Shown here: positions 665-17,760 of the stretch, piece by piece
Layout of the letters: each line of letters begins with the position of its first letter
How positions within the stretch are numbered: position 1 is the first letter of the stretch
From: a virus
Direction: 5' to 3' (one strand)
IMG/VR virus record: IMGVR_UViG_3300010883_000192
Location: 1 to 34,060 of that record
DNA: 34,060 nucleotides
Position numbers and translations under genes: made by a program
The notes under the pieces: generated by a model
Told to the model about the DNA's origin: nothing
Database searches by the model: none
Seen by the model: the letters and a program-made list of their open reading frames with translations, nothing else

Positions 665-677
665 CCTGCGCCCCTAT

Positions 678-710: not shown

Positions 711-725
711 TCAACTAACGAGCTG

Positions 726-1676: not shown

Positions 1677-1763
1677 TTTAAATCCTCAGAAGTTATCCAT
1701 TGTAGGGTTATCCGACCCGTTAGTTCATCCTTGAATTTTAGGTTATCACTATCAAAGCCTCTG

Positions 1764-3662
1764 CTACCTATGTACCTCTGCAATAACGTCTACTTGAGAC
1801 TTATCTTTTCTATCAGTTTCGTACGCCATCCTGTCAGAAGTTTTAACGACCACCTGCTTAATAACCTCGGGAACTTCACTAGGCGATATGTTGTGCATTG
1901 CATATATCTCTCTACGCATCATCAGTCCGAAAACCACTCCTGCAACAGAGTCTGCCACGTCCTTTGAGAAATTTGGCGGGTGATCTACTTTGCCTTTGTT
2001 TTGATTGCCTCGTTGGTTTAGTTCCAAAGATGCGAACTCCTTTTTTAGAAACTCGTTTTGTGGGAACCTTAGCCGCCCATCCATTAAAGCTGATTTTGTT
2101 TGGTCATAAGGCATCATGTCCGTATCGACTGACTGCTTTAAAACTTGGAAGCCCCTGCTTGCTAAAATTTGCAATGTGTCTACGGACTGAAACGCATCAC
2201 AAGAAACCCACTTAATGTTTAACCCTGACTCCCGCAAAAGGTATAGCAGAGATCGTATTTTTTCAAAAATAATTTCTCCTCCTTGGGGGGGCGTGATTCT
2301 CAAGTTTAAATCAAACCGGATATGGTGCAGCATCTCGCCTCCGGTGGCGGCTCCTCGTGAAAACCTGCGGAACCCTTCTACAAAACCTATAGACAAGCCT
2401 GCGGCATCTCCGGTAGTTGCAAGGTCAATGTGCGCCCATCGTGGAATAGTTGGCTTGTAAAAACGTCGGGGGTATATGCTGGGTATTGTTCGTAAAAAAT
2501 CTGTCTCGTTCAAGGATAAAATTGACTCGTGGTGCCCGAAACATTCGGAAACTTTTCCGGTATTGCTAATGTACGGGTGCTTTGCCAGAGTACTAATTCC
2601 TGCCACGTCCCGCAGTGCTTGGTTCATGTCGTTTTTAAAGTTATCTCTGAACTCTTCAGGTATATCTACCACCAGTCCTGCATCCTCGGGGGGTAGCTGC
2701 TCGTCCTCTTCTAGCATTCGGGCATGCTTGCTTAGATTGCCCGTGAAAACTTTAAACCACTTGCCTCCGTACCTGCTAGCGTCGTGTATATCCCACGACC
2801 TTTTATCGTAAATGTATATCGTAGTCCTGCCTGCTTTCTCTAGCTCCTCTTTGGCCTCAGTTTCTTTTTTGTCTGTAAACTGGCCGGGGTACCTTCGAGA
2901 AGACACTAAATTTAGAATGCCCGGCTGCTTTCCGTTTTGCATAAATCGGTTTTTACGACGAAGGGCTAAGGCGTTATAGTTTGCCGTAGCTTGGTCATAC
3001 TGCTCCCCGTCGATAGACTTTTTTGACTTCTCAATTACTGCCATATAATTGACCTCGTCAATCAGTCCCCCTATGACGTTTTCGCCAATGGTGGCCGTGT
3101 CGTGCCCCGAGACGGGCTTTACGATAACCCTATTCGGAAACATCATTTGAGACTCTTTGTTTTTGTCGTACTGGAAATACTCTTGAAAGTACGGGGACGC
3201 GTCAACCATGTTACGCATCCGATCAAACCCCACCTCTCTTGCCTTGGTCAGGTTAAGTGACTGCACAACAATTACAATTTCGGTAGAGGGGTCTAGCTTA
3301 AACTCTGCGTGAGGTGACACGTAACAGGACAGTAGGTACAACTGATAAACTTGTGTGTACACCGCTATGGTTGTCTTAGCCGAGCCAATCGAACCCGTAC
3401 AAATAACTTCTGTATACTTTCCGCTGTTCATTATCTCCAGTTCATCCATGACCTTGGGGTATACCAACCCTCTTGCATTCATGTAGTAAGGAGACTCAAC
3501 AAACTCTCTGATGCCTACGGGATTACGATGGTATTTGTACCTCTCTTCAACTAACTGCCGCGCTATATTTGTGGCGGCTTCCACAGATATCCCATGTTCC
3601 CGAGCAAACAAAACAAGCTCTTTGGGGTACTCACTCTTTGACTTCTTCTGCGGTTCCATCAA
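1764..3662 (-). CDS. terL: Terminase large subunit (TerL)
   Basis: This is the DNA-packaging motor, an ATPase plus headful or cos nuclease that works at the portal with TerS. The ATPase domain has a Walker A GSIGSAKTT at residues 90-98, with Ala where Gly usually precedes Lys. Its Walker B is GGLIDE at 198-203, with the catalytic Glu at 203. The RNase H-like nuclease domain shows the three expected acidic residues: D413 (HIDLATTGDAAG), D489 (VSCDAFQS) and D571 (FSKDVADSVAG). At 632 residues it is longer than many TerLs, with an N-terminal alpha-helical extension. Its start overlaps the end of the TerS gene by 32 bases, which suggests translational coupling. ATG codons occur at both residues 1 and 2. 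Confidence 0.95.
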   Translation of the reverse strand: MMEPQKKSKSEYPKELVLFAREHGISVEAATNIARQLVEERYKYHRNPVGIREFVESPYYMNARGLVYPKVMDELEIMNSGKYTEVICTGSIGSAKTTIAVYTQVYQLYLLSCYVSPHAEFKLDPSTEIVIVVQSLNLTKAREVGFDRMRNMVDASPYFQEYFQYDKNKESQMMFPNRVIVKPVSGHDTATIGENVIGGLIDEVNYMAVIEKSKKSIDGEQYDQATANYNALALRRKNRFMQNGKQPGILNLVSSRRYPGQFTDKKETEAKEELEKAGRTTIYIYDKRSWDIHDASRYGGKWFKVFTGNLSKHARMLEEDEQLPPEDAGLVVDIPEEFRDNFKNDMNQALRDVAGISTLAKHPYISNTGKVSECFGHHESILSLNETDFLRTIPSIYPRRFYKPTIPRWAHIDLATTGDAAGLSIGFVEGFRRFSRGAATGGEMLHHIRFDLNLRITPPQGGEIIFEKIRSLLYLLRESGLNIKWVSCDAFQSVDTLQILASRGFQVLKQSVDTDMMPYDQTKSALMDGRLRFPQNEFLKKEFASLELNQRGNQNKGKVDHPPNFSKDVADSVAGVVFGLMMRREIYAMHNISPSEVPEVIKQVVVKTSDRMAYETDRKDKSQVDVIAEVHR

Positions 3663-4263
3663 TATCCTTTAGACCGTCATCTTCTGAGGGCATGTTTGAC
3701 AGAAACTCTCTTAGGTTATCTGCCATTGATAACGCTTGCTGATGCTTCTCCATGTTGTCCCTAACACTCTCAAAGTTCGAGCCTGTTGCGGGCATTATAC
3801 CTATGTCAAAAGTGGTTGAAAATCCATACGCTTTCCGCTCCTGCTCCATGCCATCTCTCAAGGCCATTAACAAATCCTTATCGGAGAACTCTGAAAATTT
3901 TCGGGTCTGTAGTTCCGCTGCCGCCATAGTAACCTGCATGCGGGAAATAGACGCTTGCCTGACCCTAACAGCCGCTTCCTCCTCGGCCTCTAAGTTTATG
4001 ACAAGGTCTAAAGTCTTAAGAAACTTTTTGTCCTTAGCCCTGTCAAGCGCATCGTTCCACTTACCCTCTGCGGATTTGTTTCGCACTGTGCCAACTGCTA
4101 TACCCGATTCTTTAGCTAGCATGTCTAACGTGTATTTAGACGTGCGATCCGTTTCTAAATTCTTACGAATAAACAACTCCATTAACGCGTTCCAGTCGTG
4201 GTTTTTACTTCGCCCCTTTTTCTTAGACGGTTTTTTTGGGGGAGGAACTACTACTGTTTTCAT
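3631..4263 (-). CDS. terS: Terminase small subunit-like DNA-binding protein (TerS)
   Basis: This is the likely packaging-recognition subunit. A lysine-rich N-terminus is followed by a helix-turn-helix at about residues 25-75 (DWNALMELFI, then LDMLAKESGIAVGTVRNKSA). A long helical, acidic region comes next, and the C-terminus is acidic. This layout (HTH, oligomerising helices, C-terminal tail) and the position directly upstream of TerL are typical of TerS. Family assignment rests on context and the HTH, because TerS sequences are poorly conserved. Confidence 0.75.
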   Translation of the reverse strand: MKTVVVPPPKKPSKKKGRSKNHDWNALMELFIRKNLETDRTSKYTLDMLAKESGIAVGTVRNKSAEGKWNDALDRAKDKKFLKTLDLVINLEAEEEAAVRVRQASISRMQVTMAAAELQTRKFSEFSDKDLLMALRDGMEQERKAYGFSTTFDIGIMPATGSNFESVRDNMEKHQQALSMADNLREFLSNMPSEDDGLKDIDGTAEEVKE

Positions 4264-4266
4264 AGG

Positions 4267-4692
4267 CTAACCTACTGCGGGAAATTGTTTCATTATTCCA
4301 ACGGGTATGTGCAAAGGTGCTTTGTGTCCCCGCTGCCCTTGTGTAAAGATTTTATCGTCCAGCATAGCCACTGAGTCGAGGTCGTCAACTGCGACAATGG
4401 CTAGTCTGTCTTCGTACGACGCAACCAAAGTGGCGGGTAGTTTAAAATCTTCTTGGGCTTGCTTAATCGCGGTATAGGCTTTTGCGCTCAAGGATGTGGT
4501 GGTGCAGTCCGTAAACTTTTCCTTGTACGACGTGATGTACAACATCCTAACCGCCCTCCCCTTTAAATAAAGAATTGCGCTGGCAATCCCTTCTGAGGGC
4601 AGCATGATAACCTCCGAAGAGGCTATCTTGGCGACGGCTTTTGCGATAGCACTGTTGCGGGAGTTGCGTCCCCTAGAAACTTGATTAAGCAC
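4267..4692 (-). CDS. Hypothetical protein (141 aa) upstream of terminase
   Basis: Not recognised. It has a basic N-terminus followed by alternating hydrophobic strands (SAILYLKGRAVRMLYITSYK, then LVASYEDRLAIVAVDDLDSV). That suggests an alpha/beta fold with a central sheet, possibly a degenerate restriction-endonuclease-like fold, but no catalytic D-ExK set is evident. It overlaps the membrane-protein gene upstream by 8 bases and lies 3 bases from terS, so it belongs to the packaging operon. Confidence 0.7.
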   Translation of the reverse strand: MLNQVSRGRNSRNSAIAKAVAKIASSEVIMLPSEGIASAILYLKGRAVRMLYITSYKEKFTDCTTTSLSAKAYTAIKQAQEDFKLPATLVASYEDRLAIVAVDDLDSVAMLDDKIFTQGQRGHKAPLHIPVGIMKQFPAVG

Positions 4693-4942
4693 GGATCACT
4701 CGCTCTACTTTGGTGCCCACGTTTGTGGTACTTGGAATGGGTATGGGTATGAGAAAACGTATTAGCATTATCAAGTATACCGCGTCCCAATAGTCCAAAC
4801 CGACAACCCCAAAAACCCTTACTAGCATGTCATTCCATAACCAGAATACAGGGAACGCCAGAATCATACTAAGGAATAGTATGGTAGAAAAAGTTAGGGC
4901 CAAAAGGCCCATAATTTTTAAAATTTTCTCCGGTAAGCTCAT
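4685..4942 (-). CDS. Small two-TM membrane protein (85 aa)
   Basis: Two hydrophobic segments are clear, at about residues 10-36 and 55-72. They flank a short loop with FWLWNDMLVRVFGVVGLDYW. A pattern of Trp-Asn, then Phe-Gly, then Trp-x-Ala recurs in small bacterial and phage inner-membrane proteins of unknown role. The basic C-terminus is probably cytoplasmic. Its place next to the terminase genes parallels T7, where the holin gene precedes the terminase genes, so a class II holin is possible. The endolysin, however, lies 20 kb away and no sequence motif proves the role. Confidence 0.75.
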   Translation of the reverse strand: MSLPEKILKIMGLLALTFSTILFLSMILAFPVFWLWNDMLVRVFGVVGLDYWDAVYLIMLIRFLIPIPIPSTTNVGTKVERVIRA

Positions 4943-4944
4943 GG

Positions 4945-5763
4945 CTACGCCATTTTTTCGGGGATGGCAATTTGCAGGGTAATGTCCGGCCAGAGTTGAT
5001 CAAAAGTCTCCAGCACCTCAAGGTACCCTGCACCGTGCATCTGCGCTTTGAGGCTAGGCTCCCCTATGCTTGGCTGTTGGTCGCCTGTTAACGGCTGCGA
5101 GACAGTCGCCCCAGAAAGAAAGTTCTGGCAGATGCCGTCTAATGCTACCGAGTCGTACTCCGTATCCAGTTCGTGCTTGGCTTTGCCCAGCGCATCCAAA
5201 ACCACCTCCATCTGATCCTCGTGTAAAGAGAAATTTTTCTTCTTTAGGGGTTCAGAAGCCGTGGGGTCGGTGGGGCCGTTTGCCTGCTTTGACTCCTTGA
5301 TTTTGTCAAGCAACTCTAGCGTAGTGTTCTCCCTTGCTATCGTAATCCACTGGGCCGCGTTTGACTTGTCAATAACGCCCGCCAGCCGTGACAACTTAGT
5401 CCAGCCTATGTCCTTCACGTCTTCCCACTCTACCTCTGCCTCGATTAAAGCTACGTACATGTTCATTAAGTAGTTAGCTTTGCGGTACTCAATAGTCGGA
5501 AACTGCGCTTCAAGAAACTCTCGAAATTTAGAGTAGCCGTCGTCCTTGTACCATTTCTGTTCTTGCGCAACTGTTAGCAGTCCTCCAAGTTTAAAATCGT
5601 CAAAGGATTTGTTGTTTTGAACTTCGGATATTTGTGAATAAACTCCGTCTCTGTCGTCTTTCATTCCCTCTATTTGCTGCGCGATAGAAACGAGTTGGTC
5701 TTCGCCTGTGAGTGGTTTAGTCAGTAGTACGTCGCTGGGTGCCTTAGTTGTTACATTAGACAT
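4945..5763 (-). CDS. Phage DNA-binding-like protein of unknown function (272 aa)
   Basis: The central part at about residues 50-160 has KLGGLLTVAQEQKWYKDDGYSKF, then a helical run, then VKDIGWTKLSRLAGVIDKSN. That pattern recurs in phage and plasmid proteins that look like HTH DNA-binding adaptors (a GWxKL..(I/L)A motif). The C-terminal 100 residues are low-complexity and acidic. It has AGGAGATT seven bases before ATG, and a promoter of the GTTGAAAAA family at 5850-5879 drives it. It heads the operon that runs into the terminase genes, so a regulatory or packaging-adaptor role is conceivable. No function is established here. Confidence 0.75.
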   Translation of the reverse strand: MSNVTTKAPSDVLLTKPLTGEDQLVSIAQQIEGMKDDRDGVYSQISEVQNNKSFDDFKLGGLLTVAQEQKWYKDDGYSKFREFLEAQFPTIEYRKANYLMNMYVALIEAEVEWEDVKDIGWTKLSRLAGVIDKSNAAQWITIARENTTLELLDKIKESKQANGPTDPTASEPLKKKNFSLHEDQMEVVLDALGKAKHELDTEYDSVALDGICQNFLSGATVSQPLTGDQQPSIGEPSLKAQMHGAGYLEVLETFDQLWPDITLQIAIPEKMA

Positions 5764-5849
5764 TCTTAATCTCCTACAATATGCAGTCTAGCTGCTGATA
5801 TGCTCTGCCCGATCTCCGTTATGGCAGTGCGTGGGTGTTTCTACCAAGC

Positions 5850-5879
5850 ATAGTAACATCATGCTCTTTTATTTTTCAA
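5850..5879 (-). promoter_or_regulatory. Promoter, GTTGAAAAA class
   Basis: The minus strand reads TTGAAA (5879-5874), an 18-base spacer starting AATAAAAGAG, and TACTAT (5855-5850). The same layout occurs at 10920-10949 and 17715-17744. The leader to the ATG at 5763 is about 80 bases. Confidence 0.6.
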
Positions 5880-5887
5880 CTAGTTTG

Positions 5888-5901
5888 TGAACTTAAGATC
5901 A
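5888..5901. repeat. Near-palindrome TGAACTTAAGATCA
   Basis: This 14-base dyad lies 8 bases upstream of the -35 of the promoter at 5850-5879. An identical core is found 7 bases upstream of the -35 of the promoter at 21766-21794. It also overlaps the TGA stop of the small gene at 5899-6063. The surrounding 17 bases, TGTGAACTTAAGATCAT, recur exactly inside the gene at 17761-18759. Confidence 0.55.
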
Positions 5902-6063
5902 TACCTTCTTTGGGTTTGCCTCTGCTTGGAAAACAAAACCCTCTCCGCCCTGATCAAACTTAACAAACAACATAGTGCTTAAAACATCCACCACTAGTGC
6001 GTCAACTTGTTGCCCGTTCCAAGGTACCACCACTTTATCGTTAGGGCTAAACACTTTACTCAT
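5899..6063 (-). CDS. Small SH3/KOW-like hypothetical protein (54 aa)
   Basis: This short gene starts MSKVFSPNDKVVVPWNG and ends NPKKV. It has an excellent AGGAGA Shine-Dalgarno six bases before ATG and lies 8 bases after the stop of the 72-6263 neighbour upstream (6072-6263). The pattern xGDKVxVP, then VVDVLSTMLFVKF, is that of a small five-strand barrel (KOW/Tudor-like). Such barrels often bind nucleic acid or protein partners. Function unknown. Confidence 0.7.
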   Translation of the reverse strand: MSKVFSPNDKVVVPWNGQQVDALVVDVLSTMLFVKFDQGGEGFVFQAEANPKKV

Positions 6064-6071
6064 AAATTCTC

Positions 6072-6263
6072 CTAGAGGTAAGAAACAAACTCCCCACCTT
6101 CGTCATAAATTTCTATCAAGGAAAATCCTATGCCCTTGGGATCATGTTTTACCTTATAGCTCCAATCGTCGTAGTGAGAGGAGTTCATCATTGCCGCCAC
6201 ACGGTCAACGTCATTAGGCGCAAACTGCTGCGCCTGAATGTTTAGTAGTGACCAGTCTTTCAT
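6072..6263 (-). CDS. Hypothetical protein (63 aa)
   Basis: The protein starts MKDWSLLNIQ. I chose this ATG because AGGGGAT precedes it by four to five bases. The longer frame would need a TTG nine codons upstream with no ribosome site. It is acidic, with an aromatic-rich middle (SSHYDDWSYKVKHD). It sits between two other small genes in a short operon started by the promoter at 6631-6659. Not recognised. Confidence 0.7.
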   Translation of the reverse strand: MKDWSLLNIQAQQFAPNDVDRVAAMMNSSHYDDWSYKVKHDPKGIGFSLIEIYDEGGEFVSYL

Positions 6264-6295
6264 TTTAATCCCCTGTTTTAAAAGTTGCAAAATGT

Positions 6296-6589
6296 TTAGT
6301 TGTAAGCGAACCCATGATCATCTAGTTGGCAGACTTGCAATCTAGGTTTTACGCAGCCTCGTAACCGTGGGCCGACAAGCCGTTTGCCCCAACGTACGAT
6401 GTTCTCGGAAAGTACGTTACCGTCAACGTATTCGATCATTCCGCAGTTACCTTGAACTACAATTCCGTTTTGCTCGCTCAATTCGATAACTATTCCTATA
6501 CATCCTTCGTTAATCATGCCGCAATCCTTCTCAACGGCAACGGGGTCGCCAACTAAAAGTGCTTGGCCTTCTTGGTCTCGGTATTTCAT
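6296..6589 (-). CDS. Hypothetical beta-rich protein (97 aa) in a promoter cassette
   Basis: AAGGAGATCGAC precedes the ATG, and a strong family promoter (6631-6659) starts the transcript. The first 60 residues look like a KOW/SH3-like barrel: GDPVAVEKDCGMINEGCIGIV, split here by related CGMI repeats (residues 23-26 and 49-52). A basic tail follows. It is the first gene of a short run with the 6072-6263 and 5899-6063 genes, the last of which also looks like a small barrel. Function unknown. Confidence 0.75.
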   Translation of the reverse strand: MKYRDQEGQALLVGDPVAVEKDCGMINEGCIGIVIELSEQNGIVVQGNCGMIEYVDGNVLSENIVRWGKRLVGPRLRGCVKPRLQVCQLDDHGFAYN

Positions 6590-6630
6590 GTCGATCTCCT
6601 TAAGTGGGGTTTCTCTTGACTTCGGGTGTT

Positions 6631-6659
6631 ACTTTACTGGCGTAGTGCCCCTATGTCAA
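6631..6659 (-). promoter_or_regulatory. Strong promoter of the TTGACA family
   Basis: The minus strand reads TTGACA (6659-6654), 17 bases, then TAAAGT (6636-6631). The spacer begins TAGGGGCACTAC, in which the left half of the TAGTG-CACTA palindrome is altered. The A/T block upstream (6660-6683) and the leader AACACCCGAAGTCAAGA downstream match the copy at 394-422. Confidence 0.85.
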
Positions 6660-6699
6660 CACCTTTTTTCAATTTATTTTTCCTTATAAAATCAGTAAG

Positions 6700-7119
6700 T
6701 TACAACTGACGCTGTTTGATATGCAAAATTTCTTGCTCTATTTTTTTACGAGAATGGGCCTGAGTAACTTCCTTAAGCCTTTTCTTCAATAGTTTGAGTC
6801 GTTTGTCGTCGTTAGTTTTAAATGATGGGTGCAAAGGGTTATGTGTAAAACTCTCATCCCACAAGTGCGCGACCTGCTTAACAAAAAACTGCGCGTCTTT
6901 TGATCGGGAAAACCTTGCTGCTCGTTTGATCAATCCTTCTGCTCGATTGCAGGATCGGTGTAAGGCAAACCGGATGTGTCCAGTCGTGTGGTCGTGATCC
7001 AGAACCGCGTCTGCCTTAAGTAGCTCAGTCTTGCAGAGTGGGCAAATGTTTTTCTGCGCGGCAATTAGTTTTTCCCGTAATTTTGGGATGTCTTTTTGCT
7101 TGAGTTTTTGTGTGCCCAT
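6700..7119 (-). CDS. Recombination endonuclease VII-like HNH nuclease
   Basis: This is a 139-residue member of the T4 gp49 endonuclease VII family, which resolves Holliday junctions and branched DNA before packaging. Visible motifs are CPLC at 26-29 (zinc knuckle), VLDHDHTTGHIR at 39-50 (beta-beta-alpha-metal core, His residues at 42 and 44) and LHRSCNRAEG at 53-62 (second zinc pair and the conserved Asn). The C-terminal half is helical and lysine-rich. The ATG has AAGGAGA seven bases upstream and lies inside the upstream gene (55-base overlap). It closes the recombination operon. Confidence 0.9.
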   Translation of the reverse strand: MGTQKLKQKDIPKLREKLIAAQKNICPLCKTELLKADAVLDHDHTTGHIRFALHRSCNRAEGLIKRAARFSRSKDAQFFVKQVAHLWDESFTHNPLHPSFKTNDDKRLKLLKKRLKEVTQAHSRKKIEQEILHIKQRQL

Positions 7120-7355
7120 GAACAGTTCTCCTTGCTGTAACCCTTTGCTTTAAGCCTTCGCCTAAACACGTAATCTTTTGATGGGGCAAGTCCCATCTCC
7201 GCAAGAAATCCGCTGAACTTTCTCCACTTAAAATCCACGTAACATTGCTCAGTGTGTACAGTGGACATCATCGTCTCCCAAGCTCGGTAGGTCTTAGTGC
7301 CTGACATGCCGTGATCAACTGGCCTACCGGATTTACGGGGTCGTTTCCGAGGCAT
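7065..7355 (-). CDS. AP2/HNH-associated DNA-binding-like protein (96 aa)
   Basis: The sequence KTYRAWETMMSTVHTE, then FSGFLAEMG, then GYSKENCSWA fits the DNA-binding module often fused to phage HNH endonucleases (YxSWxxM, FxxFxxDMG, GYxxxNCxWA). The HNH residues themselves are missing here. I prefer the second ATG because AAGGA lies eight bases before it; the first ATG is only two bases from the ribosome site. It overlaps the nuclease gene upstream (7333-8328) and the endonuclease VII gene downstream. It may target or assist one of these nucleases, or be a homing-endonuclease remnant. Confidence 0.6.
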   Translation of the reverse strand: MPRKRPRKSGRPVDHGMSGTKTYRAWETMMSTVHTEQCYVDFKWRKFSGFLAEMGLAPSKDYVFRRRLKAKGYSKENCSWAHKNSSKKTSQNYGKN

Positions 7356-8328
7356 ACTCATCTTCCTTAACTAATGTGTCGGAGGCGAGTACTTGAAGTC
7401 CCGTGTGTGCTGGCTGGCCCTCGCTGTCTACCCAAGTAATGTCTGAACTGTACTTTTCAGAAAAGCATACTTTTGCTACGGGGCAACTGCCTGCTCTTGT
7501 ACACATCATGTCGTTACAAATCCGTGCGGGGTACATCGGATTAGCTTCTTCAAAAACAGCACCGTCCGTGCTCTCTCTACTTATCTGCAATGCCCTAGCT
7601 TTTGATAAGGGCTGGCGAGTAACCTTGTCATCACGCTGCACAATAAATTCTTTGAATGGGCTAATAACTCCGTTGTCATCCTTGAACCCGTGCGACCTCG
7701 ACATGTACAAAATGTGTGCTTTGTCGGTGTTGATTTTGTGCCTGTGGGCGTTATCGGACTCTGCCACCATACGCAGGTATAGTTGAGTTCTAACTCGATG
7801 CTCCGATAAAGGTGCTTGCAGCTTTTTAAAATTTTCGCTCTTTATAATCTTGCACTCGGCAAGCATCAATTTAGGCTCCCCCACATCCAGCAAGATATCG
7901 ACTCCGCAGGACGCGCCTGAGTGCTTTAGTGTAAACCGAGGCTCCTTAAACTTAAAAGTCTTGCGACCACAAGCAGTACACGTAGCTGGCCTTGCTCCAA
8001 AATCAGAGCAGTGGTCGCAGGACAAACAGTCCCAGTACCCGTGCATGATGTCCCCCGCCCAATCGTTATTTAGTCGAGACTGCTTGTCGTTGCCTTCGTC
8101 AAAAGTGTATCGTAATGCTGCGGGTATAAATTGTTTTTTGGGGGGTATGCCTTGTTGTATTTGCAGGGCAATCTGGCGCGGGCAATACTCGTAGTCTTCT
8201 CGGGTTAGATCGGACGCGTGTACACGAGTAATCGGCCTCCCCTTTTGTGTAGTTGTCATTCTTTGCAGCAAAAGGTCTTTTATTAAAACAGTACTCTTTT
8301 TGTCTCGTACAGTTTTGAGAAACTTCAT
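7333..8328 (-). CDS. Cas4/AddB-like Fe-S PD-(D/E)XK nuclease with zinc-finger insert
   Basis: This is a predicted DNA exonuclease of the RecB/Cas4 fold. Motifs in order are REDYEYCPRQ with C49; a four-to-five cysteine knuckle C101, C104, C107, C117, C120; D144 in GVDILLDVG; E158-x-K160 (AECKI); and Q182 in RTQLYLRM. A C-terminal cluster has C271, C276, C282 and C288. C49 with the C-terminal cysteines is the pattern that holds a 4Fe-4S cluster in Cas4 and AddB. There is no CRISPR array or other cas gene nearby. In this operon, directly after recA and an Hjr-like nuclease, it probably processes ends for recombination-dependent replication. It overlaps the upstream gene by ATGA. Confidence 0.82.
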   Translation of the reverse strand: MKFLKTVRDKKSTVLIKDLLLQRMTTTQKGRPITRVHASDLTREDYEYCPRQIALQIQQGIPPKKQFIPAALRYTFDEGNDKQSRLNNDWAGDIMHGYWDCLSCDHCSDFGARPATCTACGRKTFKFKEPRFTLKHSGASCGVDILLDVGEPKLMLAECKIIKSENFKKLQAPLSEHRVRTQLYLRMVAESDNAHRHKINTDKAHILYMSRSHGFKDDNGVISPFKEFIVQRDDKVTRQPLSKARALQISRESTDGAVFEEANPMYPARICNDMMCTRAGSCPVAKVCFSEKYSSDITWVDSEGQPAHTGLQVLASDTLVKEDEYASETTP

Positions 8329-8696
8329 ACAGAGTCCTTGTCTATTAGCTCCTGAAAATCCCGCTCACTTACCATAACGTAAGACCCGTTCTTTAGTGGG
8401 TCTCCTTTTGCATCGGTGAACTGTATTGCAAGGGCTGGCCTCTTCGACCTGCCCAAAGCCTCGTGTGATATCTTTTGCAGCCACTGTAGCTTTAACGACA
8501 TTGATCCGTTAACCGTGCTTTTATTTTCTACAAGAAAGTCGTCAAGATCAATGTCGCCTTTAACCCCTATCATAGCTCCAGAGGCTGCGACCATTCTACC
8601 CCCTAGCCTCTTGCCTGTTTTAGTCTCAGCCACTCTCCCAACCTTACCTATACCCTTGAGTTTGTTCCTACGTAACTCGTAAAAGTCTTCCGGCAT
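8325..8696 (-). CDS. Holliday-junction-resolvase-like PD-(D/E)XK nuclease (123 aa)
   Basis: This small nuclease-fold protein contains SGAMIGVKGDIDLDDFLVEN followed by KST. It thus has a G-D-I...D...E-x-K active-site layout. A helix LQWLQKISHEALGRSKRPA and the strand LAIQF come next, as in archaeal Hjc/Hjr and related phage resolvases. Its likely substrate is branched DNA. It overlaps both neighbours by one to four bases (TAATG and ATGA), so it is translated in step with recA and the Cas4-like nuclease. It could instead be another PD-(D/E)XK enzyme. Confidence 0.7.
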   Translation of the reverse strand: MPEDFYELRRNKLKGIGKVGRVAETKTGKRLGGRMVAASGAMIGVKGDIDLDDFLVENKSTVNGSMSLKLQWLQKISHEALGRSKRPALAIQFTDAKGDPLKNGSYVMVSERDFQELIDKDSV

Positions 8697-8944
8697 TAGA
8701 GTGTCGTTCTCCTTAGTTTTTCGGGGATGTAAACGTAGCTGTCCTCATTCAACGTGGCTCTATGGTTTACTGCGTAACCCCAGTCCAGAAATTCGAGGTA
8801 TTCGTTCGCTACTCTGTCGGCATCGTCACACCCTTGCAGGTTATGGCCTCGCTCGTAACGCTTTGCGCGAATGCCGTGAACTTTAGCTGTCCAATAAGAG
8901 CAACCATCAACTCCTGTTTTTGCTGTGACTATTACTGCTCTCAT
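8696..8944 (-). CDS. Hypothetical protein (82 aa) between recA and resolvase
   Basis: It is a small protein, with an opening strand MRAVIVTAKT and a region RVANEYLEFLDWGYAVNHRATL. It has no family I recognise. ATGA overlaps the end of recA and TAATG leads into the resolvase-like gene, so it belongs to the tightly coupled recombination operon. It may be a recombinase or nuclease accessory factor, on position alone. Confidence 0.7.
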   Translation of the reverse strand: MRAVIVTAKTGVDGCSYWTAKVHGIRAKRYERGHNLQGCDDADRVANEYLEFLDWGYAVNHRATLNEDSYVYIPEKLRRTTL

Positions 8945-10026
8945 ACGTCGAGTAGCTCGGTTGTGTACACTAGCTCAGTCGGATTTAGTAACTCTTGAAA
9001 TATTAAGCCCTTAACTCTTGAGTCAAACTCGGGGTCATTTCTCATCTGCTCTTTGATCTCGTCTTGCACATTGTAAGTAATAACTTCTTTGGTATCTGTA
9101 AATGTTAGCTCCCAACCTTTCTTTCCTTTTGACAGCCAGCCTAAGTCCTTTAGGTAATGGAGAACCGTATTCCAAGAGTACGTGTCTCCTATATTTAATC
9201 CGTGTTTTGCATTCGGTTGTAACGCTACCATAATCTCCGCAGCGGTGTTAAGTATTCCAACTTTCTGCTTAACCACTTTAACAGAGACGTTCTTAAATGC
9301 AGGCAAGCCGACATTGGGTGCGTCCTTATTAAACTCATCCTTGCCTGACACTCGCACAGTTAGCGACGACGCGTACCTAAAAGACCTTCCCCCCGGCTGA
9401 GTTTCGGGCGAGCCGTACATAACCCCAACCTTCTCTCGTATCTGGTTTATGCAGAGCAACGTAGGGTACAGTCCTTTTGCTTTTGCTTGGGAAAGAGACC
9501 TAGAGACCCTTCGGTAGAACTTGTTAATTAGTATTCCTTGGGTGCCCACCATAGCCTTTCCCACTTCGCTAGAAAGCTCGTGTCCAGTAACAAGTGCTGC
9601 CAGTGAGTCGCATACGACAACAGAGATATCCTTTGTGTAGAGTAACCCTTCAACCATTTCGACAAAACTCTCGGCAGTGTCTGGTATTATGTACCCCATA
9701 ATGTCGGTGTTTACCCCGTTAATTTTTGCCCAGTGCGCGTCGAAGTGCCCCTCGATATCCACAAAGACTGCTTTTTTGTCTGGGTACTTTTTTTGGGCTG
9801 CGGCAATAACCCTCAACGCTATTGTTGTTTTCATCGCCCCCTCTGTCCCAAACACAACAGAGCACCGCCCTTCTGGAAAACCTCCGCCCAATGCAAGGTC
9901 TAACGAAAACCAGCCCGTAGCTAGTCGGGGGACGGGGGTACTACTCATTCCCAGCCTTGCAATATCGGGGTCGTTGTAATCTTTGCAGAACTCTTGCAGC
10001 ATCTCCTTTACGCTTTTTGACGACAT
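8941..10026 (-). CDS. RecA/UvsX-type recombinase
   Basis: It is an ATP-dependent strand-exchange protein that forms filaments on single-stranded DNA. Walker A is GTEGAMKTT at residues 60-68, with Met where RecA has Gly before Lys (T4 UvsX has Phe there). The catalytic-Glu region is VDIEGHFD, with E92. Walker B is SVVVCDSLAAL with D140. The L2 region reads NQIREKVGVMYGSPETQPGG, close to bacterial RecA. At 361 residues it matches RecA length. The C-terminal acidic region is degenerate. It begins a run of coupled recombination genes and has GAGG eight bases before its ATG. Confidence 0.95.
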   Translation of the reverse strand: MSSKSVKEMLQEFCKDYNDPDIARLGMSSTPVPRLATGWFSLDLALGGGFPEGRCSVVFGTEGAMKTTIALRVIAAAQKKYPDKKAVFVDIEGHFDAHWAKINGVNTDIMGYIIPDTAESFVEMVEGLLYTKDISVVVCDSLAALVTGHELSSEVGKAMVGTQGILINKFYRRVSRSLSQAKAKGLYPTLLCINQIREKVGVMYGSPETQPGGRSFRYASSLTVRVSGKDEFNKDAPNVGLPAFKNVSVKVVKQKVGILNTAAEIMVALQPNAKHGLNIGDTYSWNTVLHYLKDLGWLSKGKKGWELTFTDTKEVITYNVQDEIKEQMRNDPEFDSRVKGLIFQELLNPTELVYTTELLDV

Positions 10027-10029
10027 ACG

Positions 10030-10425
10030 TTAACCCTCGCCTAATTCTGCAACTATTTCTTCCATTTTTTTATTCGCCCAAGACTCTACTTGAATAAACA
10101 TTTCGTCCACTCCAGCTACGGTGGGCGTACAGGGCATGTGGCAAGAAACTGAAACCTTAGCTGCCTCGTAGTTCCCTAGATTTTTGGTGTACCCTAACGT
10201 AATGCCCACGTTAGCTAACGGCTGATTTGTTATGATTGGATCACCTACGTTTTGCTCACTAGAAACTTCGGCATAAGCCTTGCCCGAAGAAACCTCTTGC
10301 ACGGACATAGTGCCCTTGCCTTGTTTCTTATCTAAGGGTAGTACCTTATCGTTGTCGATCTCTACTGCATGATGCGTCTTCATCGTGCCTTCATTTTCTG
10401 CAATCGTTACAAATTTTATAGCCAT
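10030..10425 (-). CDS. Hypothetical protein (131 aa) upstream of recA
   Basis: I chose the ATG reading MAIKFVTIAENEG because GGAGG lies eight bases before it. An upstream in-frame GTG would sit inside that ribosome site. The protein is soluble and acidic at the end (MEEIVAELGEG), with a strand-rich middle and two cysteines (CHMPC). Not recognised. It overlaps the MerR-like gene by 10 bases and lies 3 bases before recA, so it is co-translated with the recombinase and may be a partner of it. Confidence 0.75.
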   Translation of the reverse strand: MAIKFVTIAENEGTMKTHHAVEIDNDKVLPLDKKQGKGTMSVQEVSSGKAYAEVSSEQNVGDPIITNQPLANVGITLGYTKNLGNYEAAKVSVSCHMPCTPTVAGVDEMFIQVESWANKKMEEIVAELGEG

Positions 10426-10895
10426 GTTGACCACCTCCTAGCGATCTCAATGCAGTTGTCCTGCATTAAAAAATTAAATGCTTTACGAGGCATATCCCTC
10501 TCAAGCAGTTCTTTGTACAGCGTTACAACTTTTTTTATCTCTATCATTTGCCGCTTTGTATAGAGCCTGTGGTGCTCGGTAAACAGTGGACGTGGTATCC
10601 ACTTTCGTCGTTCAAAATTGATTAACATTTGGGTGTACGTCCCTGCGCTATCTGCAACGTAACCGATAGAGTAAGTTTCTACATCCTTGCCGTTAAAATG
10701 GCGGTGGTAAACTCGCTCGACAACTGCTCCGGCTTTGCGCTTTTCTCGGTAGTCCTTTGATCTTGCGATCTTGAGTTCACGAACTAGAGGGTCAGACTGG
10801 TAGTCTTTTTTTAACTTCTTACTGGTAATACCTGCATTGGCTAGGTACCAATCTCTAACTCGTTTTTTGGGATCGACACCTACCATAGGAACCAT
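10416..10895 (-). CDS. MerR-type HTH protein (159 aa)
   Basis: Residues about 75-125 read YSIGYVADSAGTYTQMLINF, then ERRKWIPRP, then HHRLYTKRQMIEIKKV. This matches the MerR DNA-binding module: IGEVA, a recognition helix, W..G.IP.P, and (H/R)RxY plus the next helix. A basic N-terminus precedes it and a short helix follows, with no effector domain. It is the first gene after the promoter at 10920-10949 and precedes recA. It could be a transcription factor for one of the repeated phage promoters, or an excisionase-like architectural protein. Confidence 0.7.
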   Translation of the reverse strand: MVPMVGVDPKKRVRDWYLANAGITSKKLKKDYQSDPLVRELKIARSKDYREKRKAGAVVERVYHRHFNGKDVETYSIGYVADSAGTYTQMLINFERRKWIPRPLFTEHHRLYTKRQMIEIKKVVTLYKELLERDMPRKAFNFLMQDNCIEIARRWSTWL

Positions 10896-10919
10896 CTCTG
10901 TTATAAAAAATGATTATTG

Positions 10920-10949
10920 ATCATACAGTAAAACCTTTTCGTTTTTCAA
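10920..10949 (-). promoter_or_regulatory. Promoter, GTTGAAAAA class
   Basis: The minus strand reads TTGAAA (10949-10944), an 18-base spacer starting AACGAAAAGG, and TATGAT (10925-10920). It overlaps the last codons of the helicase gene and would start transcription of the MerR-like and recA operon. Confidence 0.65.
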
Positions 10950-12319
10950 CTAATATTCTTAACAGGTGCGCCTATTTCCGTGTACCACTTAAACCTAGAG
11001 CCTGCATACGCGTTTAAAACTTTTGACCCGCTATCCAAAGGGTCAAAAACTACGGGCTGCTTTTTGCTGGGAAAATCCCTTCTAATTCTACCGACAATCT
11101 GGTTAACGTCTCCACGAGGAGTTCCCAGTACAGCACAGTCTAACCGTGGGATGTCGGTTGCCTCTGATGCCATCTTGTACGTAGCCAGTATTATTCTTTT
11201 TTCTTTGGCTTGTTGTCGTACCGCTTCCTTCTCACTTTTACCGCCTTTGTAGTACGTCAGTCCTACATAGAAGCCCATTTCCTGCTTGTCAATTCCGTAG
11301 TCCTTAACCAACATCTTGTTTAAGTTTTCGAGGTGCTCGGTTGTGTCGCAGAACACAATAATATGTCTGCCCTTGTTGTACGCGGCATCAATGAACCTAC
11401 ATAAAATGTGATTTCGTTTTGAGCTGTTAGCCATGTGCTTTACAAGCCCCATGATTCTCCCGAAGTCGTGAGGTACTGGTACCATAACTCCGTAGCGATT
11501 TACCATAGGGATTTCCCAGTGGGTATGTGTACGTATCACAGAGGGAACCATAGACTCTTGTGTGCCTACCACTTGAACGCTTCCGATATGCGCAGCAAAC
11601 ACTGCGTCCCTTCCGTCTTTGCGGTAAGGAGTGGCGGACAAACCTAGCCGTAGCTTTGCGTTTAAGTGCCACATTGCTTGGGAGAACTGCTCCGCTCCCA
11701 TTCGGTGAACCTCATCAGGAATGACTAAACCAAACCCGTCAAAGGTCTCTTGGTCGTACCTAGCTGGGCCTTTCAGCGCAGACTGTACTAGCATGATAAC
11801 AAAAGGCTTACCTGCGCTTGAGTTCACGTCCCCCTGCACGTAGCCAATGTCCTCATCCCGCAGCCCCAGAACAGCCTTAGCTGCGTCAGCCCACTGCTTA
11901 ATAATGTCCTGCTTGGTGGTAATTACGCAAGTTCTTTTTCCTATGTGAGCCGCTGCTGCACACCCTACATAAGTTTTTCCAAACCCCGTCATGGCCTGAC
12001 AAATATGGCTAACGTCCCCCTCTAACAATGCGCAAACTTCTTTGACTACCCGCACTTGTTCTGCGCTGCGGGGCACAAAGTTGTTTTCAAAAAATACATC
12101 TTCTCCTGCGTCCCTATAGTCAGTGCTTCCCCCTAGTACAGGTGAGCAATTTCTAGGTAGCATTAGATGGGGCTGGTTGTTGTATACAACCTCGCGGTAC
12201 ATCACAAACGGCTCTTTGTACTTATCTAAAAAAGAGTACTTTTTGCGTAGCTCTTTGCAGTCTTTGTACACTGACCCCGCCCAAATACCGACAGGTTCTT
12301 GTGTCATAATTAAACTCAA
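10946..12319 (-). CDS. UvsW-like superfamily 2 DNA helicase
   Basis: This is an ATP-dependent helicase or branch-migration enzyme. Motif I is QAMTGFGKT (about 108-116), motif II PDEVH (201-205), motif III GLSATPYRKDG (226-236) and motif VI QIVGRIRRDF (about 408). The layout follows UvsW/XPB-like SF2 enzymes, which regress forks and process recombination intermediates. The start looks like TTG at 12319: AAGGAG lies seven bases before it, while the first in-frame ATG four codons later is too far from any ribosome site. A 56-base hairpin lies in its leader. Confidence 0.9.
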   Translation of the reverse strand: MSLIMTQEPVGIWAGSVYKDCKELRKKYSFLDKYKEPFVMYREVVYNNQPHLMLPRNCSPVLGGSTDYRDAGEDVFFENNFVPRSAEQVRVVKEVCALLEGDVSHICQAMTGFGKTYVGCAAAAHIGKRTCVITTKQDIIKQWADAAKAVLGLRDEDIGYVQGDVNSSAGKPFVIMLVQSALKGPARYDQETFDGFGLVIPDEVHRMGAEQFSQAMWHLNAKLRLGLSATPYRKDGRDAVFAAHIGSVQVVGTQESMVPSVIRTHTHWEIPMVNRYGVMVPVPHDFGRIMGLVKHMANSSKRNHILCRFIDAAYNKGRHIIVFCDTTEHLENLNKMLVKDYGIDKQEMGFYVGLTYYKGGKSEKEAVRQQAKEKRIILATYKMASEATDIPRLDCAVLGTPRGDVNQIVGRIRRDFPSKKQPVVFDPLDSGSKVLNAYAGSRFKWYTEIGAPVKNIS

Positions 12320-12341
12320 AAATTATCTCCTTAAAATTGGA

Positions 12342-12397
12342 GGCTCCCCCCTTTTTGCTACCGCTTGTGGCAACAGCAAAAAAATTGCAGGGGAGCC
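12342..12397 (-). other. Long nested hairpin between SSB and helicase genes
   Basis: GGCTCCCC (12342-12349) pairs with GGGGAGCC (12390-12397). Inside it TTTTTGCT (12352-12359) pairs with AGCAAAAA (12375-12382). No T run follows on the minus strand, so it is not a classic terminator. It probably stabilises the 3' end of the SSB message or attenuates the helicase. Confidence 0.65.
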
Positions 12398-12405
12398 GAT
12401 ACTGC

Positions 12406-13131
12406 TTACAACTCTTTGTCGTAACTTCCGACAGCGGCAGGTTCTGAACCTGCGGCAGGGCCTCCCGAAGAGTTACTTCCAAAACCTAACTTAATTAAAT
12501 CAGCGCGACTAAAATCAGGCACGATGTCGGTATAGTCGTGAGGGTAAACGTCTTCTGCATTAAGGTTGTACGCCCCTGCAAACTCAGACATGTCTTCCCA
12601 CTTCTTAGTAAAATCAAAAGTGTCCCCGACGTTTTCGGAAGTGTCGCCTAGACGAGAAACATCAAAAGTGACTCCGGCCAGACCCCCGCGTTTTGTTGCT
12701 AGCTGGCGTAACCGTTTTAAAACACCCTTCTTGCAGACAAAAAGTTTTTTCTGGTCTTTAAAAGTTTTGCCTTTTGACTTGCCCTTTTTAGACACCCACT
12801 CGCTGTGGTCTATAATTGTGAAGATCGCAACCAGTGAACTCTTGTACTCCCCGTCTTCGCAAATTGGGCACTTCTCCTCACCCTGAATGCACGGATACCA
12901 ATTACGCCAGTCTCCTCCCATTTTGACTTGGTGCTCCCAGTACGTCAGCTCGTCGAGCATGCCGTTACCATCAAGGTCGCCATCAAGGAAAGTGATTGAG
13001 GTAGTGCCGTTTTCAGGTATCCAAAAACGTGTCGTGTAAGAAAAGTCTGTGTTCTTTTTGGCCTCTTGCTCGGCCTCGACTTTGTCAACTGCTTGGTGGG
13101 ATGCAGCACCCTTCAAAAATGTAATACCCAT
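12406..13131 (-). CDS. gp32-like single-stranded DNA-binding protein
   Basis: This is a 241-residue replication and recombination SSB. It has the basic/aromatic OB-fold region of phage SSBs, with a zinc knuckle candidate at about residues 80-92 (YPCIQGEEKCPICEDG). Basic segments (KKGKSKGKTFKDQKK, about 114-128) probably line the DNA cleft. An acidic stretch and a Gly/Ser/Pro/Ala-rich linker end in VGSYDKEL. Near residue 52 a dockerin/EF-like loop DLDGNGMLDEL occurs, which is unusual. The start has GAGGAGT upstream. It sits between the methyltransferase and UvsW-like helicase genes, which suits a replisome role. Confidence 0.8.
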   Translation of the reverse strand: MGITFLKGAASHQAVDKVEAEQEAKKNTDFSYTTRFWIPENGTTSITFLDGDLDGNGMLDELTYWEHQVKMGGDWRNWYPCIQGEEKCPICEDGEYKSSLVAIFTIIDHSEWVSKKGKSKGKTFKDQKKLFVCKKGVLKRLRQLATKRGGLAGVTFDVSRLGDTSENVGDTFDFTKKWEDMSEFAGAYNLNAEDVYPHDYTDIVPDFSRADLIKLGFGSNSSGGPAAGSEPAAVGSYDKEL

Positions 13132-13165
13132 ACTACTTACTCCTCGTCGCTTAGGACGTTGTTAT

Positions 13166-13207
13166 GCTCCAATCAGGAGCGAATATTTTGACGCTTATTG
13201 TCAGCGT
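13166..13207. other. Two short hairpins in the gap before the SSB gene
   Basis: GCTCC/GGAGC (13166-13180, five-base loop) and ACGCT/AGCGT (13191-13207, seven-base loop) occupy the 97-base gap 13132-13228. The second lies 22 bases after the methyltransferase stop. Neither has a good T run. No promoter of the two local families is visible here. Confidence 0.4.
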
Positions 13208-13228
13208 AAGGGGGACTGTACACGATAA

Positions 13229-14332
13229 TTACTGTCGTTGCCACACCCACATTGGTTCTGCAAAAATTCCTTCTTTATTTTTCAGTGCTCCACTGTTAGG
13301 ACGCTGCCTCATCTGGTACCCAATGCACCCCACGTAGTTAGAATCTGGGAGGCTTAAAATGAAGTCATTCATCTCATCACAAATTTTATTGACCGTGTGG
13401 TTGGAGTACACGTCGCTAATATTGATAATCATGTGCCCTCCCTTATCCAAAACCTGCCACGCATTAGACAGGGCGCGGTGCAGAAAATTTTTGTTCCAAT
13501 CATCAATCTTCCGATACCTCTTGAACGACTGATCGTCCTCCTGTGTGTACCGCTCAATGTTGTAGTACGGGGGTGAGGTAAATACCAAATCGTAACCATG
13601 AGGTTCCAGCGGCATGTCCTCAGAGCAACCTTGCAGCATGTTAATCGTTTGGTGCTCGGGCCTAAATATTAACTGATCCTTGTACCCAGAGATGAGTTGT
13701 TTATTAGGATCGACTCCAGTGTACAGGCTTCCCCCTGTTGCCATGAAGCCTGACAGCCTATCGCCCCATCCAGAGGAGAAGTCCAGCACCCTGTCAGCCT
13801 TGAACAATTCGTACACCCCTTTCGCTGTACTAGGTCGGAATTGGCTGGCAATGTACTTGCGCAATCCAATGATGCTACGCAATTCTTTTGACGTAACCTT
13901 TGTGAGTTTCATAGACCACAGCGCGTTGAATAACGTCAGCCTAAATTTCTCTACTGTCCATGATCTATACGGGGAGGGCGAGTTGATACTGTCACAGTGC
14001 CACCTGCTCTCTTGGTGAAAATAATCGCTCGACAGGTTGCCCGTCGTATCAGAAGGAAAATACAAATCATTAAGAGGGTACTGATCACTGTAATCGTATC
14101 GTGTAAACCACTTCCCCTGTACAGGGTTGCAGTCCCTCTCTCGTAGTTTTAGGTGGGAATCCCTTGCGTCATTAAGTGATATCTCACGCATCGGCATCGG
14201 CACGTTGTTTTGCTCAATGGTGTCGGAGATGAATTGTTTAATATCATCCCTGCTCATCATCTCGTTTAGGTCGCTCCACAAGGTCTCGGATATTTCTATC
14301 TCGTTGGCCCCGTTCAGAATGCAGTACCTCAT
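13229..14332 (-). CDS. DNA methyltransferase, orphan (SPPY motif)
   Basis: This is a predicted SAM-dependent DNA methyltransferase of 367 residues. Motif I is VLDFSSGWGDR (182-192) with D208 ending the next strand (YTGVDPN). Motif IV is FTSPPYYNIE (251-260); SPPY is usual for N4-cytosine and some N6-adenine enzymes. The first 170 residues have no recognised domain and may carry target recognition. No restriction enzyme gene is nearby, so it may protect phage DNA from host restriction. It overlaps the primase gene by ATGA, an odd coupling that may link modification to replication. Confidence 0.85.
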   Translation of the reverse strand: MRYCILNGANEIEISETLWSDLNEMMSRDDIKQFISDTIEQNNVPMPMREISLNDARDSHLKLRERDCNPVQGKWFTRYDYSDQYPLNDLYFPSDTTGNLSSDYFHQESRWHCDSINSPSPYRSWTVEKFRLTLFNALWSMKLTKVTSKELRSIIGLRKYIASQFRPSTAKGVYELFKADRVLDFSSGWGDRLSGFMATGGSLYTGVDPNKQLISGYKDQLIFRPEHQTINMLQGCSEDMPLEPHGYDLVFTSPPYYNIERYTQEDDQSFKRYRKIDDWNKNFLHRALSNAWQVLDKGGHMIINISDVYSNHTVNKICDEMNDFILSLPDSNYVGCIGYQMRQRPNSGALKNKEGIFAEPMWVWQRQ

Positions 14333-15303
14333 ACAGGAGTTCCCATCGGCAAAAAAAACTCCAGTGCCTCAAACATTTGTTGGCAGGTCATGTCGCCCGC
14401 GTCTTTGCATCCTTCTGATGGGAGCAGGTGAGTGATGATCGCATCGGGAAAATACAAGTCAATTTTATTCCGTGCCTTATCTCCCCCCTTGCCCAAATCA
14501 AACATAGTAACAATCTCGCTACACTCAGAAACTCGATAGGCACAATCCCTACTTATCCCTACAGACAGAGGGGCTATGACGTTCTTATACTCCCGATACG
14601 CACTAGCCAAATCAAAAACAGACTCGACCATAAGGACAGGCTCGTCAGGGTTAAGCCACTCCTCCCCGTACCAAATATTCTTTGTGTATTTTTTCTCTCC
14701 AGTTTTGTAAACATGGTATCTAGGCGCGTCCCCTTGAGGGTCTATCCTTCTTCCTCGAACTTGTGCCAGTTCCGCATTAGAGTTGCGTATCGGAAACACG
14801 ACAATGTTGCGGTGCCCGTCGTATCTGATATCAAGTTCATTTATAATCTTGTCCGTTAAACCCCTGCCCCTTAAATAGTTGCGGGCAACTTCAACGGTCA
14901 CAGCAGGCTTAAAATTTTTCTGCCACCAAATCTCTGAGTACAACGTGTCCGGTGCATTGTACGTTGATACATCGTCTGAAAAACTTAAAACGATGTCATC
15001 GGTCATTTCAGCCTCGCAGATTTTTAACGCGGTAACATAATCGTATCGGTTAGCCCCTTTTGATCTGTCGCGCAGTTGGTACACTAAATCGACAAGGTCG
15101 CCAGACTCGCAAGAGTAACAGTGAAAAAAGCTCTCCTTGTTAGCAAGAACTTTAACCCCAAAAGAGGGGCTTGAGTCTTTGCCTGAATCATGCGTCCACG
15201 GTGCAAGTACGCAAGGGCACCGTACCCACTCGTCCCCGTCCACCATGTCTGCATGAGGTACTCCAAGGGATGACAAGTACTGCTTAATGCGCTCCCGATC
15301 CAT
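14329..15303 (-). CDS. DnaG-type DNA primase (zinc finger plus TOPRIM)
   Basis: It makes RNA primers for lagging-strand synthesis. The N-terminal zinc finger has cysteines at 29 and 31, H38, and C62 and C65 (FFHCYSC). The TOPRIM core has E227 (PVLMVESVFD) and D269 (VTMFDLGKGGDKA). The usual second Asp of DxD is Gly271, although D275 follows close by. A KDAGDM motif near 300 matches the third TOPRIM-end motif of phage primases. It is 324 residues, compact and without a fused helicase. The helicase is a separate gene upstream at 15801-17063. It directly abuts the 15304-15747 gene. Confidence 0.88.
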   Translation of the reverse strand: MDRERIKQYLSSLGVPHADMVDGDEWVRCPCVLAPWTHDSGKDSSPSFGVKVLANKESFFHCYSCESGDLVDLVYQLRDRSKGANRYDYVTALKICEAEMTDDIVLSFSDDVSTYNAPDTLYSEIWWQKNFKPAVTVEVARNYLRGRGLTDKIINELDIRYDGHRNIVVFPIRNSNAELAQVRGRRIDPQGDAPRYHVYKTGEKKYTKNIWYGEEWLNPDEPVLMVESVFDLASAYREYKNVIAPLSVGISRDCAYRVSECSEIVTMFDLGKGGDKARNKIDLYFPDAIITHLLPSEGCKDAGDMTCQQMFEALEFFLPMGTPV

Positions 15304-15747: not shown

Positions 15748-15775
15748 TGTGCTCTCCTTAGTTAATGTTGTGGTA

Positions 15776-15804
15776 ACACTACATTAAACGTAGTGTCATG
15801 TCAA
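15776..15804 (-). promoter_or_regulatory. Promoter with ACACTAC/GTAGTGT inverted repeat
   Basis: TTGACA (15804-15799) is followed after 17 bases by TAGTGT (15781-15776). A perfect 7-bp inverted repeat ACACTAC, 7 bases, GTAGTGT (15776-15796) covers the spacer and the -10. This is a wider-spaced relative of the TAGTGnCACTA dyad of the other TTGACA promoters. The -10 is weak, so the inverted repeat may be more significant than the promoter. Confidence 0.55.
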
Positions 15805-17744: not shown

Positions 17745-17760
17745 CCCCCAAATGCTGTGC

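Follow-up and report, generated by a model that had tools for sequence, protein, structure and literature searches.

An endonuclease VII gene at the RuvC place of a conserved phage recombination operon

The collective evidence of this study, obtained on the IMG/VR virus record IMGVR_UViG_3300010883_000192 (34,060 bases, analysed at full length and hereafter called the window), points to an exchange of Holliday-junction resolvases at one place of a phage recombination operon. A gene for endonuclease VII is found in the window between the same two flanks, a Cas4-like nuclease and a protein of the family phrog_17202, that enclose a RuvC gene in relatives, by which we mean named phages and loci fetched from IMG/VR. 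No match to RuvC (phrog_159) was obtained in the window at an expectation value (E) of up to 1, and none in the record of locus L123, which likewise has endonuclease VII at this place. The exchange is best understood as an endonuclease VII of podovirus affinity having displaced RuvC in place; the operon itself would be the part of a phage replication operon devoted to recombination, resembling the UvsX-dependent system of T4. To this explanation as a whole we assign a probability of roughly 0.6.

The place after the Cas4-like gene was defined from two collections of loci. The ten named phages read for this study, together with 67 IMG/VR loci fetched with an alignment of the Cas4-like protein, constitute 77 loci. 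Their conserved gene order is single-strand DNA-binding protein (SSB), XPB-like helicase, regulator, 134-residue protein, RecA, Hjr-like protein, Cas4-like nuclease, RuvC and phrog_17202 protein. RecA, Hjr, Cas4 and RuvC are consecutive in 10 of 10 named phages (these phages also supplied most of the material for the profiles), and RuvC is confirmed independently by phrog_159 in all ten records. RuvC follows Cas4 in 74 of the 77 loci; the distance between the Cas4 gene end and RuvC, calculated with script-chosen starts, ranges from -20 to 1327 bases. The phrog_17202 gene is likewise present in 74 of 77. A second scan, made with phrog_17202 and thus independent of Cas4 and RuvC, returned 71 loci; 70 of these had not been fetched before, with many situated on contigs already known. 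Cas4 is present in 65 of these 70, accompanied by RuvC in 63, by endonuclease VII in one (L123) and by neither in one (L138, on the contig of L078). The other five loci (L112, L126, L146, L154 and L155) have no Cas4 nearby; in L155, endonuclease VII is matched 5.7 kb away from the phrog_17202 gene. Since motif scans do not represent a random sample and the contigs are partly redundant, the 143 of 148 loci with Cas4 (window included) were grouped into 90 clusters at 90% Cas4 identity. The place after Cas4 is taken by RuvC in 86 clusters, by endonuclease VII in two (the window and L123) and by neither in two (L021/L045 and L078/L138). At the level of whole records, 52 were taken from the 77 loci, leaving aside 25 contigs no longer than 51 kb; RuvC is present in 51 of the 52, the exception being the 89-kb record of L078 (G042); the endonuclease VII profile PF02945 matches three of the 52, two of them above the cut-off, and all three also carry RuvC.

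Two resolvases together with Cas4 are therefore the norm in this group, usually in the form of Hjr and RuvC. An earlier reading made from the sequence alone had drawn attention to two different Holliday-junction enzymes and a nuclease within a single phage operon; the combination is indeed present, but the pair as such is ordinary, the unusual feature being endonuclease VII at the place of RuvC. The comparison of operon order in related phages speaks for a module whose parts co-occur, as opposed to independent neighbours: Hjr and RecA are both carried by 64 of the 65 Cas4-bearing loci of the phrog_17202 scan.

The 139-residue protein of the window is assigned with some assurance to endonuclease VII of the T4/podovirus type (phrog_423), and cutting of branched DNA is predicted from its sequence. 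It matches PF02945 with 46.3 bits (cut-off 23.6) and the structure of T4 endonuclease VII (1e7d) at 2.2e-5 across residues 14-113. Its CPLC, DHDH and CN motifs align with the T4 enzyme, in which we take the corresponding residues to be zinc ligands and the catalytic D-H-x-H and N. One zinc cysteine of T4 is a histidine in the window protein and also in Zobellviridae phages RIO-1 and KZY1. Among 80 matched proteins, 54 share the histidine and 26 do not fit the pattern used. The nearest relatives lie in podovirus replication regions. RIO-1, KZY1 and autographiviruses show 42-43% identity over 72-74% of the query (tblastn) and IMG/VR locus L157 shows 53%, and the genes adjoining the relatives encode a podovirus 5'-3' exonuclease and DNA polymerase. 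A scan of IMG/VR for endonuclease VII gave 174 relatives, the best 80 of which were kept, many at short loci; among these 80, no match to RecA, Hjr, Cas4, RuvC or phrog_17202 is found nearby. The case of L123 emerged solely from the phrog_17202 scan.

Endonuclease VII appears to have entered this place more than once. The L123 protein belongs to another subfamily (phrog_307, 4.6e-35), with phrog_423 matching its core only (1.5e-14). A tree of RecA, Hjr and Cas4 combined (28 rows) unites the window, L123 and L089 in one clade (100/99), within which the sister of the window is L089 (96/86), a locus that has RuvC; a quick tree of 85 rows gives the pairing of window and L089 a support of 81, without a star. 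Two separate swaps, in the window and in L123, are thus favoured from the different subfamilies of endonuclease VII and from the RuvC-bearing sister of the window.

In a first alternative, which we consider unlikely, endonuclease VII and the neighbouring 98-residue open reading frame (ORF) would constitute a selfish or homing cassette of the HNH kind inserted beside Cas4, RuvC having moved or been lost, and endonuclease VII would not serve as a working resolvase. The 98-residue ORF is related to HNH-type phage endonucleases, RuvC is shifted away from Cas4 in L021/L045, and two of the relatives' records carry endonuclease VII-like genes alongside RuvC, in three copies (G034) and in one (G030); the match in a third record (G008) is below the cut-off. 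Against the cassette stand the T4/podovirus type of the window protein, compared to phrog_2914 for the two proteins scanned from G034 and G030 (L079 and L080), the placement of its relatives beside podovirus replication genes, and the absence of RuvC from precisely the filled place in two cases. The 98-residue ORF, moreover, is a shortened relative that lacks the central segment of its HNH homologs in L054, L074, L078 and L116, and is probably either a remnant or an accessory that binds DNA. That the window gene might be a mobile HNH gene, comparable to the ones in G034 and G030, was considered directly and not adopted, since L079 and L080 belong to the other subfamily, are not next to Cas4 and occur in records that also have RuvC; the idea is kept in the cassette alternative only. 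The HNH gene beside endonuclease VII in KZY1 was likewise discarded as the source of the 98-residue ORF, being by eye of a different HNH type and on the opposite side of the gene. A chimaeric contig is not favoured, because both flanks of the RuvC place are the group's own neighbours and the guanine plus cytosine content is even (0.44-0.49) across the window genes examined. Repeats around the place are limited to two short two-copy families. As separate observations, the G034 record (that of L062) holds L079, L082 and L083 as three endonuclease VII-like HNH genes beside RuvC, L079 being of the phrog_2914 type, which suggests mobile genes, and the G042 record of L078 bears two HNH-type genes related to the 98-residue ORF.

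The second alternative concerns the constant partner. The 123-residue Hjr-like protein, which has no significant Pfam match, could be a PD-(D/E)XK nuclease of another kind, such as a partner of Cas4 in end processing, and this would leave RuvC or endonuclease VII as the single true resolvase. Its profile meets the Hjc structure 1gef at a marginal E of 0.16, tRNA-splicing endonucleases are listed among its Foldseek rows, and 88 of 90 clusters hold a second resolvase next to Cas4, as expected if Hjr were insufficient. Yet archaeal Hjc/Hje chains make up 10 of the top 11 Foldseek rows for the AlphaFold2 model (predicted local distance difference test score, pLDDT, 88), and residues of the Hjc type are retained throughout, with E24, S39, D48 and K59 in every one of 88 rows and E57 in 86 of them, positions that presumably correspond to the E, S, D, E and K of the Hjc active site. 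The PHROGs name of the family is also Holliday junction resolvase. Resolvase activity is hence likely but not established, the best fold matches being Hjc/Hje at E of 0.03 or worse, and we regard the alternative of a different nuclease as improbable.

For the 331-residue protein, sequence and structure model suggest membership in the Cas4-like Fe-S (iron-sulfur) nuclease family, with activity predicted accordingly from fold and residues. Neither a significant Pfam match nor, with the single sequence as query, a match in IMG/VR or the PDB was obtained. The AlphaFold2 model from a 56-sequence alignment (mean pLDDT 90.8) finds SSO0001 Cas4 (1.1e-5) and human EXO5 (2e-4) as best Foldseek matches, just four rows having E <=0.001. 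VIA-align places MGME1 (Z 12.3, root-mean-square deviation 3.3, 153 residues aligned) and SSO0001 (Z 11.2, deviation 5.0, 173 aligned) above other PD-(D/E)XK nucleases, among them lambda exonuclease, Dna2 and RecB. Catalytic E158 and K160 are present in 90 of 90 cluster rows and D144 in 89, with one gap. Both cysteine sets noted in the sequence-only reading exist. The candidate Fe-S set comprises Cys49, Cys271, Cys282 and Cys288, the last three kept in all 90 representatives and Cys49 in 87, its three gaps coinciding with an interrupted gene (L029) and with contig edges (L075, L077); these cysteines are not part of the peptide patterns used to fetch the first 67 loci. An Fe-S cluster may thus be expected, with the spacing of the last three cysteines (x10, x5) differing from the x2, x5 that we take to be usual for Cas4. 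The inserted zinc knuckle (Cys101, 104, 117 and 120) is less strictly kept, at 87, 88 and 84 of 90 for its first three positions and an aligned Cys120 in just 54. In the window's nearest relative (L089:4536-5384), V, C, I and H occupy the knuckle positions and the four Fe-S cysteines are kept, showing that loss of the knuckle need not entail loss of the Fe-S set. Of the earlier label 'Cas4/AddB-like', the first half fits; AddB is too specific for a protein whose best folds are the stand-alone Cas4, EXO5 and MGME1. The assignment offers a family for proteins that many public records label hypothetical or 'rubredoxin-type fold protein'.

Several points weigh against the explanation we prefer. 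The contigs of the window and of L123 are fragments (34 and 41.5 kb), such that RuvC could be encoded elsewhere; L021 and L045 do carry RuvC elsewhere in their records, and the window may do the same. In L078 the place holds neither RuvC nor endonuclease VII, and no RuvC, RusA or endonuclease VII was found in its 89 kb by the searches made, from which it follows that the need for a second resolvase may not be strict. The approximately unbiased test does not reject a tree in which the window and L123 form one clade (p 0.207). The resolvase call for the Hjr-like protein rests on weak fold matches (best Foldseek E 0.033, probability 0.98), and the Foldseek TM-scores of the nuclease are low, at 0.29-0.44 (0.29/0.42 for SSO0001).

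Regarding the pathway, the window encodes UvsX/RecA, a probable SSB, a superfamily 2 (SF2) helicase, a replicative helicase and a primase, as in the T4 type. The RecBCD-like end-processing pathway suggested in the sequence-only reading, in which the Fe-S enzyme would be the nuclease component, is very improbable: the nuclease lies beside RecA and shares its fold with the nuclease domains of RecB, AddA and AdnA (further down the ranking, at Z of about 6 to 8), but it stands alone, the operon helicase is XPB-like, and a search at E up to 1 found no helicase of the UvrD/RecB/AddA type in the 34 kb of the window, nor do 44 of 45 related records have one, the sole match (G029, E 2.0e-4) being above the family cut-off with in-frame neighbours. 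In the recombination arm we propose instead, the Cas4-like nuclease would process DNA ends or single strands, making or trimming tails onto which SSB and RecA could load; RecA would invade a homologous copy and so serve replication start and repair; the XPB-like helicase, for which a role like that of UvsW may be envisaged, would move the branches; and the Hjr-like enzyme would cut the four-way recombination junctions. The second resolvase, RuvC in the relatives and endonuclease VII in the window, would debranch DNA for packaging by analogy to T4 gp49, which frees packaging stalled at branched DNA according to PMC9958956. On this view the second job would be needed but not bound to one fold, so that endonuclease VII from a podovirus pool could replace RuvC. 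More tentatively, and at somewhat less than even odds, the place after Cas4 may be seen as a socket for a debranching resolvase of the packaging type that Hjr cannot replace; unrelated enzymes would have been plugged in twice, in the window and in L123, RuvC being lost on both occasions. If so, duties would be split between Hjr, for recombination intermediates, and RuvC or endonuclease VII, for DNA that enters the packaging motor. The exchange suggests that the virus needs a second junction cutter whatever its origin. On the question of why phages keep several enzymes that cut junctions, the operon provides a natural experiment in which the Hjr-like protein is constant while the other resolvase is swapped between unrelated folds at one place, thus separating the duty from the protein.

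The replication and recombination genes of the window form one minus-strand array from DnaB (17063-15801) through endonuclease VII (7119-6700), as collected in Table 1.

Table 1. Genes of the replication-recombination array of the window and the far-side flank of the RuvC place
Feature	Position	Strand	Basis and remarks
DnaB, replicative helicase	17063-15801	-	
Primase	15303-14329	-	
DNA methyltransferase	13229-14332		PF01555 3.8e-8; between primase and SSB
Probable SSB	12406..13131	-	phrog_17226 1.8e-44 (function unknown); phrog_14578 SSB 7.2e-6
SF2 helicase, XPB-like	10946..12319	-	PF04851 3.7e-21; XPBII 5.2e-11 in PDB
Regulator	10895-10416	-	
134-residue protein	10434-10030	-	
RecA/UvsX-like recombinase, 361 residues	8941..10026	-	PF00154 2.4e-49; phrog_97 UvsX-like recombinase 4.3e-54
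82-residue ORF	8696..8944	-	Between RecA and Hjr; own start overlaps RecA stop by 4 nucleotides
Hjr/Hjc-like PD-(D/E)XK putative resolvase, 123 residues	8325..8696	-	phrog_2002 'Holliday junction resolvase' 3.5e-22
Cas4-like putative nuclease, 331 residues	7333..8328	-	phrog_2506 'exonuclease' 1.3e-39
98-residue ORF	7065..7361	-	Between nuclease and endonuclease VII; phrog_8790 1.2e-9, phrog_3377 2.4e-9
Predicted endonuclease VII, 139 residues	6700..7119	-	PF02945 4e-12; phrog_423 'endonuclease VII' 6.8e-29
phrog_17202 protein, 272 residues	4945..5763	-	phrog_17202 4.3e-57; far-side flank of RuvC place

The four genes originally recognised (RecA, Hjr-like, nuclease and endonuclease VII) lie where they had been placed on the minus strand, with profile matches far from chance, but two small ORFs of 82 and 98 residues within the array had been overlooked. 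Translational coupling, also proposed earlier, agrees with the overlap of every neighbouring pair from RecA to endonuclease VII (4, 1, 4, 29 and 55 nucleotides); it is possible yet not required for the last step, since endonuclease VII has its own AAGGAG ribosome site, situated within the 98-residue ORF. The 82-residue ORF has no significant relative in the Pfam and PHROGs searches (best phrog E 0.061) or in the fetched loci, and three further small ORFs between Cas4 and phrog_17202 have none in the 77 loci, nor does the methyltransferase. The RcZahn gene at the place equivalent to the window SSB is annotated as T4 gp32-like. Window positions 1-20000 have no near DNA match among phages, and Rfam gave no match. 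Promoter and terminator scans found 17 and 13 sites compared to 11.2 and 9.4 in shuffled sequences and were not used as evidence.

Further observations concern RecA in the relatives and other genes of the window. Probable inteins are seen in phage RecA of double length (691-731 residues) at L019:3486-5591, L055:2804-4996 and L070:3138-5210, with Intein_splicing matches of 1e-7, 2.6e-7 and 2.5e-9, just the last above the Pfam cut-off, and LAGLIDADG_2 above it in two of the three. In L004:6325-7409 (SIO-2), L024 and L028, RecA is matched in two parts that lie in overlapping frames; the SIO-2 record annotates no gene there, and a frameshift, a sequencing error and a programmed event are the options. 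Upstream in the same array, window positions 19607-20794 encode an AAA-family ATPase (PF00004 2.9e-29, phrog_10401 2.2e-69). A 392-residue protein at 23221-24399 matches phrog_704 'DNA repair exonuclease' at 1.5e-106, with matches in 2095 phage records and none in Pfam at 0.01.

Lastly, the window invites comparison with known systems. Rhodobacter phage RcZahn, Stenotrophomonas phage DLP_5, Vibrio phages SIO-2 and LV6, Rhizobium phage RHph_TM16 and Agrobacterium phage JP1 carry RecA-Hjr-Cas4-RuvC modules with the same genes in the same order; their modules end with RuvC, whereas the window has endonuclease VII there and, additionally, the 82- and 98-residue ORFs. The RcZahn and JP1 records already label the nuclease as Cas4 exonuclease, and some records label Hjr as Holliday junction resolvase. 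The T4 UvsX system resembles the window in UvsX-like recombinase, SSB, SF2 helicase and endonuclease VII, but differs in that the nuclease of the window is Cas4-like and an Hjr-like enzyme is present. Endonuclease VII of Zobellviridae and autographiviruses shares the subfamily phrog_423 with that of the window, yet it lies in podovirus replication regions, with no RecA-Hjr-Cas4 operon nearby in the best 80 of 174 loci. A Campylobacter phage also bears a Cas4-like protein, set apart by its description in terms of CRISPR spacer uptake (PMC4283603). In the open-licence literature we found no description of an exchange at a fixed operon place with the Hjr-like enzyme constant. Complementary patterns of RuvC, endonuclease VII and RusA, with RusA displacing RuvC, are known from jumbo phages (PMC7824862); compared with these, the exchange of the window belongs to one group of smaller phages, and its new element is the occurrence at a single conserved operon place beside a constant Hjr-like enzyme.

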